Assembly: GCA_016193465.1 (NCBI GenBank)
Contig: JACPSE010000113.1
Location: forward strand, 1-50,791
DNA from: Deltaproteobacteria bacterium
GTDB taxonomy: Bacteria > Desulfobacterota > Binatia > UBA9968
DNA length: 50,791 bases
Direction of reading: 5' to 3'
A program made the position numbers and the translations under genes. This document shows positions 23,618 through 48,381 of this stretch, one piece after another. Position 1 is the first letter of the stretch, and every line of letters starts with the position of its first letter. The notes beneath the pieces were generated by a model, which did not search any database, was not told the origin of the DNA, and saw only the letters and a list, made by a program, of their open reading frames with translations.

Positions 23618-24424
23618 ATGAAAACTGTCATTCTCTGCGGCGGGCTGGGAACACGGCTGAGGGAAGAAACGGAGTTCAGACCCAAGCCCATGATAGTTGT
23701 AGGCGATAAGCCGATCCTGTGGCATATCATGAGGATTTACTCTTCCTATGGATTCAAGGACTTCATCCTTTGTCTGGGCTACAAGGGTGAGGCGATTAAG
23801 AGTTACTTTCTTGAATACGATTTGCTGTACAGTGATTTTACCGTTCGATTGGGGACCAAAGAGATCGCCCGTCATTCCGTATTCCATGATGAGAGCGATT
23901 GGCGGGTCACGCTGGCAGAGACCGGGCTGCAGACCATGACCGGGGGAAGAATCAAAAGGATTGAAAGGTATGTCGACGGCGATACCTTCATGATGACCTA
24001 CGGCGACGGGCTAGCGAATGTCGATATCCGTCGCCTGCTGAAATTCCACAAGGAAAAGGGAAAGATCGCCACCGTCACCGCCGTGCGTCCTATAGCGAGG
24101 TTCGGGGAACTCGCGGTGAATGGAGACCTCGCGGCATCATTTCGGGAAAAGCCGCAGATCGAGAGCGGCTGGATCAACGGCGGGTTCTTCGTGTTCAACA
24201 GAAAGGTCTTTGACTATCTGGATGAAGACTGCGTGCTGGAAAAGGGACCTATGGAGACACTTGCGAAAAAGAGGCAATTGGCAGTCTATAAACACGCCGG
24301 GTACTGGCGATGCATGGATACCTTCCGGGACTTAGAGGCTTTGAATCACGACTGGATGAGCGGCCGCCCGGGATGGTTGCGATCCCCCCGGGAGGATAGA
24401 AAAAGCCGGCAGGTTTTATCTTAG
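23618..24424 (+). CDS. rfbF: Glucose-1-phosphate cytidylyltransferase RfbF
   Basis: Makes CDP-glucose from CTP and glucose-1-phosphate, the entry step to CDP-3,6-dideoxyhexoses. The 268-residue protein starts MKTVILCGGLGTRLREETE, the nucleotidyltransferase G-G-x-G-T-R-L motif. It contains RPKPMIVVGDKPILWHIM, MTYGDGLANVDI and the RfbF-type C-terminal pattern EKGPMETLAKKRQLAVYKHAGYW. It shares an operon with an RmlC-like cupin and an RmlD-RfbH fusion. The expected next enzyme, CDP-glucose 4,6-dehydratase (RfbG), is not encoded here. Confidence 0.93.
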   Translation: MKTVILCGGLGTRLREETEFRPKPMIVVGDKPILWHIMRIYSSYGFKDFILCLGYKGEAIKSYFLEYDLLYSDFTVRLGTKEIARHSVFHDESDWRVTLAETGLQTMTGGRIKRIERYVDGDTFMMTYGDGLANVDIRRLLKFHKEKGKIATVTAVRPIARFGELAVNGDLAASFREKPQIESGWINGGFFVFNRKVFDYLDEDCVLEKGPMETLAKKRQLAVYKHAGYWRCMDTFRDLEALNHDWMSGRPGWLRSPREDRKSRQVLS

Positions 24425-24445: not shown

Positions 24446-24895
24446 ATGATTGAGGGAGTTTCGATCCGTCCGTTGAGGCAGATTCCTGATGAGCGTGGAA
24501 AGATTATGCATATGCTCAGGCGGGATGATCCCTGGTTCGAGAAGTTTGGAGAGATATATTTCTCTGTTGTCTATCCCGGGGTCATCAAGGGCTGGCATCT
24601 CCACAAAACCATGACCTTGAACTACGCCGTGGTCAGCGGAGTGATCAAAGTGGTTCTCTTCGATGACCGGGAAGGCTCGGCAACCAAAGGAGAGCTCCAG
24701 GAGATTTTTACCGGGGAAGAGGCTTACTCTTTGATCACTATTCCGCCGGCGGTTTGGAACGGGTTTAAGGGGTGCGGGGTCAAGCCGGCAATCGTCGCCA
24801 ATTGCGCTACCGAGCCGCACGACCCCGCGGAAATCGTGCGGATGGACCCTTTCTCCGAGAAGATCCCCTACGATTGGAATCTCAAGCATGGCTAA
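24446..24895 (+). CDS. RmlC-like cupin, nucleotide-sugar 3,5-epimerase family
   Basis: A 149-residue single-domain cupin of the dTDP-4-dehydrorhamnose 3,5-epimerase family, with VVYPGVIKGWHLHKTMTLNYAV holding the conserved histidine at about 51 and IPPAVWNGFKG in the second half. It is shorter than classical RmlC (about 180). Placement between rfbF and an RmlD-RfbH fusion suggests that it acts on a CDP-4-keto-6-deoxyhexose, as AscE does in ascarylose synthesis. That role is inference. It overlaps the following gene by 8 bp. Confidence 0.78.
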   Translation: MIEGVSIRPLRQIPDERGKIMHMLRRDDPWFEKFGEIYFSVVYPGVIKGWHLHKTMTLNYAVVSGVIKVVLFDDREGSATKGELQEIFTGEEAYSLITIPPAVWNGFKGCGVKPAIVANCATEPHDPAEIVRMDPFSEKIPYDWNLKHG

Positions 24896-27104
24896 GGTGA
24901 GGGCTGCAGTGATCGGCGCGTCGGGCTTGGTCGGCCGGGCTCTGGCGCGGGCGCTCGAGAACAGCCGGTACGAGGTCTCAGGAACTTACGGTACCCGCGC
25001 CGCCGATGGATTGGTGTTTCTGGATATCCGGGATTCTGCTGCCGTGCGGGAATACTTTTGCGGGTTTCAACCGGATATCGTATTTCTAACGGCTGCCCTA
25101 ACCAATGTAGATTACTGCGAGGACCATCCGGAAGAGGCCTTCGCTACCAACGTCGAGGGGACAAGGCATGTTGCAAGAGAAGCCGCGCAATGCGGCTGCA
25201 AACTGGTTTTCTACTCAACGGACTACGTCTTTGACGGCAAAAACGGCCCTTACGAAGAAGAGGCCGAGGCCTCGCCCGTCAGTGTCTACGGGAGGAGCAA
25301 GCTGGAGGCCGAAAAGGCGGTCCAAGAAATCGTTTCGGACTATCTAATGGTCCGCACCACGGTGGTTTACGGATGGGACCGGCAGTCGAAGAATTTTGCC
25401 ATGCAGCTTTACCAAAAGCTTCAGGGCGGGGCGACCATGGCGGTGCCTGAAGATCAGATCGGCAACCCGACCCTCGTCGACTACCTGGCCGAGGCGAGCA
25501 TCCGTTTAGTCCAGCAGGGGACGCGAGGGATTGTGAACGTTGTCGGCAAGGACCTGTTGCCGCGCTCGGAATTTGCCAAGGCGCTGGCACGGGTTTTCGG
25601 CCTCGACCCGGCGATGATCGTTCCTGTCTCGACTGCCAGTTTGAAGCAGCGCGCTGAGCGTCCCTTGCGGGGCGGCTTGAAGGTGGAAAGACTGAGCCAG
25701 TTGTTGGGTACGGAGGCGATGTCCCTTGAGGAGGCCTTCAAGCGTCTGCGCAGGCAATGGCGCGGGGATGCCCAGATTACCTATGTTAAGGCAGAACGTA
25801 AGGGAGAATCGGCAGGAGTTGCCAAAGAGATCCTCGACCGGGTCAAGCGATATTATGAACTGGTCCATAAAGAAAGGGGGTTTGTACCCTTCAAGACGCC
25901 TATCTCATACGCAGGCCGGGTGTTCGGCGAGCAGGAGATGATCAATCTAGTGGATAGCGCCCTGGATTTTTGGTTGACCCTCGGTCCCTATGGCGACCAG
26001 TTTGAGAGAAAGATGAGAAGTTTCTTCGGCGCCCGCGACTTCATCTTAGTGAACTCAGGCTCTTCTGCCACGCTTCTGAGCGTTGCCTGCTTGATGCCCC
26101 ACGATCTTGAGGGCCATCTTGAAAAAGGGGACGAGGTGATCACGCCAGCAGTAACATTTCCCAGCACCCTGGCTCCTATAGTCCAGAACGGACTGATTCC
26201 TGTTCTGGTTGATGCTGAGGTAGGCACCTATAACATTAACCCTTGCCTGATTGAAAAGGCCATTTCTCCTCGGACGCGCGCCCTGTTCATTCCTCATACC
26301 TTGGGCAATCCATGCGATATGGATATCATTTGTGATATCGCGCGGCGGCACCAGTTTTTTTTGATCGAAGATGCCTGTGATGCGTTGGGGTCGACGTTTC
26401 GGGGAAGATTGGTTGGGAGTTTCGGGGATATCGGGACTCTGAGTTTTTTCCCTGCCCACCACATTACCACGGGAGAGGGAGGGGGTGTGATAGTTAACAG
26501 TTCCCGGTTCTCAAAGGTTGCCCGGTCCCTGCGTGATTGGGGAAGGGACTGCTGGTGCGCGCCGGGTGAGTCCAACACCTGCACGAAGCGTTTTGGTTGG
26601 CATTTGGGGGATCTTCCAGCAGGGTACGATCATAAGTACATCTATTCGCATATCGGCTATAACCTCAAGCCTACCGATCTCCAGGCGGCCGTGGGTGTGG
26701 CGCAGGCAGACCGGATTCAAGACTTTGTTCAAAAGCGCCGAGACAACTTTCAGAAACTCTACCGGGCCTTGGAGCCCTATCAGGATTTCATCATTCTGCC
26801 TAGACTAGATCCGCGTTCTCAGCCGGCCTGGTTCGGCTTCCCGATCACGGTTAAGAGCAAGGTATCCAAGCGCGAGCTGGTCCAGTGGCTGGAAGCGGCA
26901 AAGATAGAGACCCGTGCTGTCTTTGGCGGTAACATCCTGCGTCAGCCTGGCTACACGGGCATTGAGTGCCGCGTTGCCGGTGAGCTGACCCAATCGGACG
27001 TCATCATGCGGGATACCTTCTTTATTGGGGTCTATCCGGGTCTTACTGAGGAAATGGTTAATTTCATGATTGCCCGTCTCCAGAGTTTTTTTGACCAGCT
27101 TTAA
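24888..27104 (+). CDS. rfbH: RmlD-like reductase fused to RfbH-type CDP-sugar 3-dehydrase
   Basis: A 738-residue two-domain protein. Residues 1-293 are an RmlD-like SDR (GASGLVG at 10-16, STDYVFDG at 110-117, YGRSK at 134-138). Residues about 310-738 are an aminotransferase-fold PMP enzyme of the RfbH/AscC (E1) type, which removes the 3-hydroxyl of CDP-4-keto-6-deoxyglucose. Two diagnostic features are present. The usual PLP lysine is histidine (H524 in FPAHHITTGEGG). Cysteines 497, 555, 557 and 565 give the spacing C-x57-C-x1-C-x7-C of the E1 [2Fe-2S] cluster. The linker lies at about 294-310. The fusion suggests that 3-dehydration and 4-keto reduction act in sequence on one CDP-sugar. Confidence 0.88.
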   Translation: MAKVRAAVIGASGLVGRALARALENSRYEVSGTYGTRAADGLVFLDIRDSAAVREYFCGFQPDIVFLTAALTNVDYCEDHPEEAFATNVEGTRHVAREAAQCGCKLVFYSTDYVFDGKNGPYEEEAEASPVSVYGRSKLEAEKAVQEIVSDYLMVRTTVVYGWDRQSKNFAMQLYQKLQGGATMAVPEDQIGNPTLVDYLAEASIRLVQQGTRGIVNVVGKDLLPRSEFAKALARVFGLDPAMIVPVSTASLKQRAERPLRGGLKVERLSQLLGTEAMSLEEAFKRLRRQWRGDAQITYVKAERKGESAGVAKEILDRVKRYYELVHKERGFVPFKTPISYAGRVFGEQEMINLVDSALDFWLTLGPYGDQFERKMRSFFGARDFILVNSGSSATLLSVACLMPHDLEGHLEKGDEVITPAVTFPSTLAPIVQNGLIPVLVDAEVGTYNINPCLIEKAISPRTRALFIPHTLGNPCDMDIICDIARRHQFFLIEDACDALGSTFRGRLVGSFGDIGTLSFFPAHHITTGEGGGVIVNSSRFSKVARSLRDWGRDCWCAPGESNTCTKRFGWHLGDLPAGYDHKYIYSHIGYNLKPTDLQAAVGVAQADRIQDFVQKRRDNFQKLYRALEPYQDFIILPRLDPRSQPAWFGFPITVKSKVSKRELVQWLEAAKIETRAVFGGNILRQPGYTGIECRVAGELTQSDVIMRDTFFIGVYPGLTEEMVNFMIARLQSFFDQL

Positions 27105-27132: not shown

Positions 27133-27903
27133 GTGAGTGAGTCGCCCGGCCAGCTAAAGATCGCGATTTTTATCCCCACTTATAACGCAGCCCATACGCT
27201 ACCCTTGGTCCTTGACCGGATCCCTGAGGACGTGAAGAGTCGGGTGGAGGAAATCTTTATCGTGGACAACGCAAGCGCGGACAATACCTACCTGATAGGA
27301 GTAGGATATAAAAACGAGAAGGGCATGCACAATCTCAACATCTACAGAAACGACAAAAATCTTGGGTACGGCGGCAGTCAAAAAGTCGCTTATCGCTATG
27401 CCATCGAGAGAGGGTACGACGCGGTGGTCATGCTGCATGGAGATGCTCAATACGCGCCGGAAAAGATTGCCTACCTGCTGGAGCCGTTTGAGAAAGGGGA
27501 GGCGGATATGGTTTTTGGCTCCCGCATCGCTGGCCTGCCGTTGAAGGGGGGAATGCCGCTGCACCGTTTTCTGGGCAACCGCTTCCTGAGCACGGTGCAG
27601 AATTATATCCTCGACTGGAATCTATCGGAGTACCACTCCGGCTTTCGTGTCTTTGGCTGCGAGGCCCTGAAAAAGGTTCCCTTTCACTTGTGTTCGGACG
27701 ATTATCACTTTGATACGGAAATCCTCGTGCAATTCAAGCTGAAGGGCTTGAGGGTCGTGGAGAGGCCTATTCCCACGCACTACGGCAACGAGAGGAGCTA
27801 TGTTAACGTGTGGCGCTACGGCCTGGATGTCCTGTACGCGATGGCGGAGTACGTTCTCCATCAAAGGGGGATCCGAAAGGTCGATAAGTTCGACATCAAG
27901 TAG
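27133..27903 (+). CDS. Glycosyltransferase family 2, polyprenyl-phosphate (DPM1/ArnC-like)
   Basis: A 256-residue GT2 protein starting at GTG 27133, with IAIFIPTYNAAHTLPLVLDRIP, IVDNASADNT and the DXD-type motif VVMLHGDAQYAPEKI at about 97. DMVFGSRIAG and a terminal region without obvious membrane helices follow. The pattern is that of dolichyl- or undecaprenyl-phosphate sugar synthases. Such enzymes supply lipid-linked donors to GT39 transferases, two of which flank this gene (21875 and 30291). It follows the RfbH fusion and may use the CDP-sugar's relative; the sugar is unknown. Confidence 0.8.
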   Translation: MSESPGQLKIAIFIPTYNAAHTLPLVLDRIPEDVKSRVEEIFIVDNASADNTYLIGVGYKNEKGMHNLNIYRNDKNLGYGGSQKVAYRYAIERGYDAVVMLHGDAQYAPEKIAYLLEPFEKGEADMVFGSRIAGLPLKGGMPLHRFLGNRFLSTVQNYILDWNLSEYHSGFRVFGCEALKKVPFHLCSDDYHFDTEILVQFKLKGLRVVERPIPTHYGNERSYVNVWRYGLDVLYAMAEYVLHQRGIRKVDKFDIK

Positions 27904-46432: not shown

Positions 46433-47479
46433 ATGGCACTAAAGCCGGAAGGCAAAGGTTTGTTTTCGGGGAAGCGCGTTTTAGTGACAGGTGGCACCGG
46501 CTCGTTTGGTCACCAGATCGTCGATCGGCTTCTGAAAGAGGGGCCGGCTGAAATACGCATCTTCAGCCGGGACGAGGACAAGCAAGTCAGGATGAGCGAA
46601 GAATACGGGATGGCCCGGCACTATCCCAAGAATGCTTCCATGAACTTTGTCATTGGGGATGTGCGAAATCCGAGCCGGGTAAGAGAAGTAATGAGAGGGA
46701 TTGATATTGTTTTCCACGCCGCGGCCCTGAAGCAGGTTCCCTTATGCGAGTATTACGTTTGGGAGGCTGTTCAGACAAATATCATGGGCGCGGAGAATGT
46801 CATTCAAGCGGCGGTCGAGGAGGGGGTCGAAAAGGTCATTGCTATCAGCACCGATAAGGCGGTAAAGCCCGTGAATGCGATGGGTATGTCGAAAGCCATT
46901 CAGGAGAAGCTCTTTACGGCGGCCAACTTCCACACGGCAAGCGAGGGAACGGTTTTCGCCTGTGTGAGGTACGGAAACGTCGTGGGATCGAGGGGATCTG
47001 TCATTCCTCTCTTTAAGAGGCAGATTGAATCCGGCGGGCCGGTTACCATTACCGATCCGGAAATGACGCGCTTCATCCTTACCCTTTCAGAAGCCATCGA
47101 TTTGGTTTTTCATGCCGTCGCGACTGGCGTGGGTGGGGAGGTGTTTGTGCTCAAGATACCGGCCGCGCTGGTGGCGGATATCGCCCAGGTCATGGTGGAA
47201 TCCCTGGCTCCGGGGCGTGGGATTCCCATCCAAACCATTGGGATCCGTCCGGGAGAGAAGATCCATGAGGTCCTGATCTCAGAAGCAGAGTCTGTGCGCA
47301 CCATTGAGGAAGGCTCTACCTACACGATTCTTCCTCAAATTGACATCGCGGAGACTCGTGCTTCCCACCGCCGCGGCGCGCAGGTGGCCTTTCGGGAATA
47401 CAAGTCCGATACAGCTCCGAGGCTCTCAAAAGAAGAAATCGCTTCGATCCTGAGCCGAACTGGCTGGCTCGGGCTATGA
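46433..47479 (+). CDS. UDP-HexNAc 4,6-dehydratase/5-epimerase, CapE/FnlA/WbjB-like
   Basis: A 348-residue SDR of the short CapD/FlaA1 group. It has KRVLVTGGTGSFGHQIVDRLLK, FHAAALKQVPLCEYYVWEAVQTNIMGAENV, ISTDKAVKPVNAMGMSKAIQEKL (methionine in place of the tyrosine, as in this group) and IRPGEKIHEVLISE. The family forms UDP-2-acetamido-2,6-dideoxy-L-arabino-hexos-4-ulose from UDP-GlcNAc. Followed at once by an RmlD-like reductase and a cupin, it begins a UDP-L-6-deoxyHexNAc pathway. The 2-epimerase needed for L-FucNAc (FnlC) is not here. Confidence 0.87.
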   Translation: MALKPEGKGLFSGKRVLVTGGTGSFGHQIVDRLLKEGPAEIRIFSRDEDKQVRMSEEYGMARHYPKNASMNFVIGDVRNPSRVREVMRGIDIVFHAAALKQVPLCEYYVWEAVQTNIMGAENVIQAAVEEGVEKVIAISTDKAVKPVNAMGMSKAIQEKLFTAANFHTASEGTVFACVRYGNVVGSRGSVIPLFKRQIESGGPVTITDPEMTRFILTLSEAIDLVFHAVATGVGGEVFVLKIPAALVADIAQVMVESLAPGRGIPIQTIGIRPGEKIHEVLISEAESVRTIEEGSTYTILPQIDIAETRASHRRGAQVAFREYKSDTAPRLSKEEIASILSRTGWLGL

Positions 47480-48381
47480 AACTCCTTGTCACTGGGGCGG
47501 GTGGCATGCTCGGGCACAGCTTCCTACGTCTCGCCGCGGGGAGACATGAGAGCTGGGGAATCTATAGGTCTTTTTGCCCCTCGGCGCCGATAGGAAGGGC
47601 GTTGGTCATGGACTTGACCGATAGAGCCGTGGTCAAGGAACAGGTGGCTGCCTTGAAGCCAGATGCCATCATCCATACTGCTGCTTTGACGGATGTCGAG
47701 GAGTGCGAAAGGGACCCGCTCAAAGCCCGGCAGATAAATGTCGAAGTCACAAAAGAGCTGGCTGACCTGGGAGAGAAGCTCGGCAGCGAGGTTGTTTATA
47801 TCTCGACGGATTATGTTTTCGATGGAAAGAGAAGGGACTATAGCGAGGCAGACGCTCCCAGGCCGATAAACTTCTACGGGGAGAGCAAGCTGTTGGGAGA
47901 AGAGGCCGTGCGGCTGTTCTGCCCCAGGTCATTGGTAATTCGCACATCGATTTTTGGTTTCAACATCCAATCGAAGATAGGACAAGTAGAGTATTTTAGG
48001 GAGTCACTAACGGGAGGTAAGTTCATAACTCGCTTTTCGGACCAGTTCTCTTCGCCTATTTATACCGGTGACCTAAGCCGGGTGATACTGGAGCTTTTGG
48101 AACACAGGTCTACTGGCCTGTTTCATGTTGGCGGAGGAGAGAGAGTCAGCCGCTACGACTTTGCCGTCAAAGTGGCGGAGGCCTTTTCCCTCCGCCCGGG
48201 AAGGATTCGGCCGGCGCCATTTACGCATCTGGAAGGACTGGCCCAAAGACCGAGGGACAGTTCCCTTTGCAGTGAAAAGATAGAGCGCTATCTGAAGATG
48301 GAATTGCCGAAAATAGGAGATGGGCTGGAAAGGTTGAAGCAAGATCTCGGCGGGCATCAAAAATCGGAGGGGAAGAAATGA
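47476..48381 (+). CDS. RmlD-like nucleotide-sugar 4-keto reductase
   Basis: A 301-residue reductase of the RmlD group. It has MKLLVTGAGGMLGHSFLRLA, IIHTAALTDVEECERDPLKA, YISTDYVFDGKRRDYSE, NFYGESKLLGE (Y-x3-K) and the C-terminal LFHVGGGERVSRYDFAVKVAEAF. The 4-bp overlap with the CapE/FnlA-like gene suggests that it reduces that enzyme's 4-keto product, comparable to WbvR or to the SDR half of CapF. dTDP-rhamnose synthesis is less likely because RmlA and RmlB are absent from the window. Confidence 0.83.
   Translation: MKLLVTGAGGMLGHSFLRLAAGRHESWGIYRSFCPSAPIGRALVMDLTDRAVVKEQVAALKPDAIIHTAALTDVEECERDPLKARQINVEVTKELADLGEKLGSEVVYISTDYVFDGKRRDYSEADAPRPINFYGESKLLGEEAVRLFCPRSLVIRTSIFGFNIQSKIGQVEYFRESLTGGKFITRFSDQFSSPIYTGDLSRVILELLEHRSTGLFHVGGGERVSRYDFAVKVAEAFSLRPGRIRPAPFTHLEGLAQRPRDSSLCSEKIERYLKMELPKIGDGLERLKQDLGGHQKSEGKK

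Follow-up and report, generated by a model that had tools for sequence, protein, structure and literature searches.

What would a bacterium make with a protein that joins an RmlD-type sugar reductase to an RfbH-type 3-dehydrase, and is such a protein real? The window studied here, i.e., the whole stretch formed by positions 1–50,791 of contig JACPSE010000113.1 (forward strand; assembly GCA_016193465.1, Deltaproteobacteria bacterium; Binatia; UBA9968), holds one such gene (24888..27104, + strand), a single ORF of 738 aa with zero internal stops. Both halves belong to well-known enzyme families and their fusion has apparently gone undescribed; no RmlD-RfbH fusion was found in the literature searched, which left out most subscription journals. 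We consider it fairly probable that its product is a bifunctional enzyme in a CDP-3,6-dideoxyhexose pathway, with the RfbH step preceding the RmlD step; both activities and their order are predictions from sequence.

Domain layout and integrity of the fusion

The N-terminal part is a predicted RmlD-type NAD(P)H-dependent 4-ketoreductase domain (residues 8–287; 24909..25748, + strand), matched by Pfam RmlD_sub_bind (PF04321) with 215.8 bits (gathering score 27). The rmlD equivalog TIGR01214 scored 211.7 bits on the fusion, just below its cut-off of 224.05; by sequence, this half is RmlD-like and is not filed as the RmlD of dTDP-rhamnose synthesis. The C-terminal part is a predicted RfbH/E1-type CDP-4-keto-6-deoxyglucose 3-dehydrase domain (residues 309–736; 25812..27095, + strand), with 619.8 bits for NCBIfam RfbH (NF011936; cut-off 423) and 280.5 bits for Pfam DegT_DnrJ_EryC1 over residues 349–731. 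Between them lies a linker of ~15–20 residues (about residues 293–308; 25764..25811, + strand). One 738-residue chain with an RmlD-type and an RfbH-type half, as the original prediction described it, is thus what the reading frame and both domain models return.

The original prediction had named the case that would undo it: a sequencing error joining two genes at about 25770–25820, revealed by close relatives. It had also proposed a domain search for further RmlD-RfbH fusions, and that search found them, with the junction intact. A congener (G003, identical in sequence to public contig L011) has an intact fusion with 79% identity to the window, a second (G001) keeps the fusion at 74% identity as far as its contig end, and MAGs of Acidobacteriota (L008), Elusimicrobiota (L009) and Chloroflexota (L010) carry it over the full length at 58–62% identity. 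Residues 280–344 of the window protein contain zero in-frame ATG, GTG or TTG codons, and the same holds for G001; therefore, translation of the RfbH half could not begin separately at the junction. Linker length is conserved among fused proteins. The dN/dS values between the window and L011 are 0.12 for the RmlD domain, 0.14 for the linker and 0.09 for the RfbH domain, and at the sequence level purifying selection acts on both domains and on the linker. A further Chloroflexota locus (L013, 5821–8160) has a fusion copy of the same layout with two apparent frame changes, by assembly error or decay. That errors or decay occur in a related MAG is all that could be set beside the idea that sequencing or assembly fused two genes here, for which no support was found. 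Because of the relatives' fusions, the missing start codon and the low dN/dS across the linker, such a join is excluded at the level of sequence, and we regard its probability as negligible.

Catalytic signatures and electron supply

The RfbH half bears the [2Fe-2S] and histidine signature of E1-type enzymes, which marks it as a putative 3-dehydrase. Cysteines stand exactly at 497, 555, 557 and 565 of the fusion and a histidine at 524; in the alignment, C497, H524, C555, C557 and C565 fall on C193, H220, C251, C253 and C261 of 3bcx with a constant offset of 304. This upholds the proposed E1-like cysteine spacing, with H524 in the place of the PLP lysine. E1 residue numbers were taken from the alignment and from the title of 3bb8 (E1 H220K), an entry which indeed has K in the H220 column. 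In E1, the four-cysteine motif (the [2Fe-2S] ligands) and the histidine as lysine replacement are established (PMC8987622). The closest solved structure is E1 itself (AscC/DdhC/RfbH of Yersinia pseudotuberculosis, 3bcx; 474 bits), which shares its fold, histidine and four cysteines with the C-terminal half (Foldseek TM 0.92, target-normalised; 46% identity). Across the 27 full RfbH-domain rows of alignment A2, and in the partial congener too, none of the five residues varies. The half does have the DegT aminotransferase fold, so an aminotransferase rather than a dehydrase could be imagined; however, a histidine replaces the PLP lysine, all four Fe–S cysteines are kept, and NF011936 lies far above its cut-off while the PseC, WecE and ArnB models score far below theirs, which makes an aminotransferase highly improbable.

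The active-site positions of the reductase half are kept as well: a GxSGxxG motif (G10, G13, G16), S110-T-D-Y113 and Y134xxxK138. Residues G10, G13, G16, S110, Y113, Y134 and K138 are invariant in all alignment rows having an RmlD domain. PF04321, the cofactor motif, STDY and YxxxK are thus common to this half and to RmlD, the dTDP-4-dehydrorhamnose reductase.

E1 has a single domain and needs a dedicated partner protein, E3, which is a ferredoxin–FAD–NADH reductase (PMC8987622). The window protein differs by its N-terminal RmlD domain and by its genome, where a profile search with PF00970 (FAD_binding_6) and PF00175 (NAD_binding_1) did not find a dedicated E3 with 2Fe-2S ferredoxin, FAD and NAD domains. 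The sole match to these models in the genome (C70; L153) is a DHODB-type subunit adjoining Fe–S and oxidoreductase genes. Since no E3 was found, a ferredoxin is the probable electron donor. There is a parallel in SpnQ of the spinosyn pathway: this [2Fe-2S] PMP 3-dehydratase, likewise without a dedicated E3, works with pairs of a ferredoxin or flavodoxin and its reductase (PMC8987622). SpnQ differs in its dTDP substrate and single domain, and the RfbH half matches E1 much more closely.

Three genomes with the fusion (G003, G001 and G528) gave zero FAD_binding_6 matches, G003 and G001 being 87% complete, and so did 6 of the 16 genomes with an unfused RfbH. A missing E3 is therefore not special to the fusion, and no dedicated E3 turned up in the RfbH-bearing genomes of this lineage. 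It is possible that divergent E3 proteins were missed by the models. General ferredoxins may commonly serve E1-type enzymes outside enteric bacteria; what reduces these enzymes there is a question posed by the fused and the several unfused RfbH genomes in which E3 is apparently missing.

The operon and the role of the reductase half

The fusion follows RfbF, a glucose-1-phosphate cytidylyltransferase (23618..24424, + strand; TIGR02623, 337.2 bits, cut-off 300.25), and an RmlC-like cupin of 149 aa (24446..24895, + strand; PF00908, 30.7 bits, cut-off 27), which overlaps the start of the fusion by 8 nt. At its 3′ side lies a GT2 glycosyltransferase (27133..27903, + strand), a candidate user of the product, whose closest match among the loci compared (69% identity) stands directly after RfbH in L012. 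The wider locus is devoted to LPS core and cell-surface glycan synthesis, with two GT9 heptosyltransferases, two PMT-type transferases, one GT4, a NeuB/HAD pair and three WaaP/Kdo-type kinase candidates, two of them confirmed by Pfam. At 46433–48381 of the window, a PseB/FnlA-like dehydratase precedes another RmlD-like reductase, a divergent one (215 bits against a cut-off of 224); this pair probably belongs to a separate aminosugar pathway.

We searched the genome family by family for pathway partners. The window operon has no RfbG, and an RfbG-type protein is encoded on another contig (C210:1148-2134), an arrangement repeated in the congeners. It is about 53% identical to RfbGs found beside RfbH elsewhere and scores 202 with TIGR02622, against 206 and 209 for those RfbGs, all of them below the cut-off. 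The genome thus encodes RfbF, an RfbG-type protein and RfbH, the CDP-3,6-dideoxyhexose pathway set. By profile search, it has no RmlC match and no RmlB over the cut-off (best match 162 bits, cut-off 365). A dTDP-rhamnose role for the RmlD half was judged unlikely here on account of these two absences, which also leave the CDP pathway as the natural source of its substrate. With RfbF and the cupin as operon neighbours, RfbG encoded in trans and neither RmlC nor over-cut-off RmlB, the most likely substrate of the RmlD half would be the CDP-3,6-dideoxy-4-ketohexose that the RfbH half produces.

Related loci show the same neighbours. The order in L009 is RfbF-RfbG-cupin-fusion, and L025 has RfbF-RfbG-cupin-RmlD-RfbH as five separate genes, the last three overlapping, which suggests that these enzymes also act together when unfused. 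In L059, too, an unfused RmlD sits between cupin and RfbH.

Could the RmlD half act on some other substrate, e.g., a dTDP- or UDP-4-ketosugar, and have been joined to RfbH by chance? Four family members (G008, G009, G015 and G017; L116–L119) have an RmlD of this type (52–57%) as a separate protein in the corresponding LPS-core locus and no RfbH over the cut-off, so that such a reductase can have another job, and some of the family's LPS loci with a stand-alone RmlD have RmlA, RmlB and RmlC nearby. L012, for its part, does without an RmlD at the place of the fusion, and this too tempers our reading of the reductase half. However, the window's own genome lacks RmlC and over-cut-off RmlB, at least four phyla retain the fusion beside RfbF, RfbG and the cupin, and the unfused RmlD of L025 and L059 occupies the same place. 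We regard another substrate as unlikely. The fusion ties this branch of RmlD-type reductases to a chemically well-understood 3-dehydrase, and thereby gives the branch a testable function.

In L009, L011, L013, L025, L044 and L059 the cupin is found together with RmlD or the fusion; L012 and L016 have it alongside RfbG and RfbH. It has a WHxHK motif; the column of the RmlC catalytic Tyr is not kept and its closest structure is the uncharacterised 3ejk (130 bits). Because the RmlC tyrosine is absent, epimerisation by this protein is uncertain, and on sequence it is a possible 5-epimerase. If it were one, cupin and RmlD-type reductase would follow RmlC/RmlD logic, leading to an L-sugar such as ascarylose.

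We hypothesize the following route. RfbF would make CDP-glucose, which the RfbG-type 4,6-dehydratase from the other contig would turn into CDP-4-keto-6-deoxyglucose. The RfbH half, with PMP, H524 and a [2Fe-2S] cluster on C497, C555, C557 and C565, would remove the C3 hydroxyl, drawing electrons for the [2Fe-2S] step probably from a general ferredoxin. The cupin may epimerise the RfbH product, probably at C5, and the RmlD half would use NAD(P)H to reduce the ketone at C4. The resulting CDP-3,6-dideoxyhexose, possibly an L-series sugar (ascarylose-like), would go into the LPS core or a glycan of the locus. The fusion would fix the stoichiometry of the two enzymes and hold the labile 3-deoxy-4-keto intermediate close to the reductase that takes it up.

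How closely the intermediate is held can be considered on a structure model. AlphaFold2, run on the monomer only with 36 sequences, gave a mean pLDDT of 88.9 and a pTM of 0.64, with a mean pLDDT of 60 at residues 291–300, in the linker. Confidence drops in the Fe–S region (553–590) as well, which is to be expected of a model that lacks the cofactor and the partner subunit. There are two confident domains joined by a weak linker, and no confident domain interface or mutual placement. Channelling from the RfbH to the RmlD half is a reasonable hypothesis, possible on such a monomer model, which neither proves nor excludes it. There is about an even chance that the pathway is the same but that nothing is channelled, the fusion only fixing stoichiometry or co-expression and the free intermediate passing through the separate cupin. 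The low-confidence linker and the pTM of 0.64 with two well-folded domains speak for this, as do the separate gene of a cupin that maybe acts between both steps, and the many unfused operons among the loci compared. Against it, E1-type enzymes are dimers (PMC8987622) whereas the model is a monomer, and the linker keeps its length. The more ambitious picture of an E3-independent, self-contained dideoxysugar synthase, with hand-over of the intermediate within the chain, a general ferredoxin as donor and spread across phyla, seems to us doubtful.

Distribution and history of the fusion

Fusions of consecutive deoxysugar steps have precedents: the RmlC/RmlD fusion of Prymnesium parvum and the plant UDP-rhamnose synthases (PMC6556577, PMC8987622) each place an RmlD-type reductase in one chain with another step. 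In those, the partner is an epimerase, not a PMP/Fe–S 3-dehydrase, and they come mostly from eukaryotes and large DNA viruses. The bifunctional reading of the window protein would also make it a natural construct for one-pot 3,6-dideoxysugar synthesis, a field in which attempts to obtain CDP-paratose and CDP-tyvelose were reported as failed (PMC7851689).

RfbH is, as expected, normally a separate protein. RfbH over the cut-off occurs in 9 of the 148 genomes of the class sample and is fused in just three of them, all of the window's genus; in the phylum sample, a strong RfbH match occurs in 25 of 395 genomes, and the window's protein is the only one among them to cover both domains. The fusion is nevertheless conserved, at the level of sequence, in at least four bacterial phyla. 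Deep forks of the RmlD tree are unresolved, and for this reason we make no dating claim for the fusion from it. A tree of 65 RfbH domains places every fused row in a single group of eight (95/89) spanning four phyla, with the unfused L012, which has no RmlD at that place, nested among the fused proteins. This is consistent with one old fusion, horizontal spread across phyla and one loss, the simplest reading; alternatively, the fusion may have had two origins.
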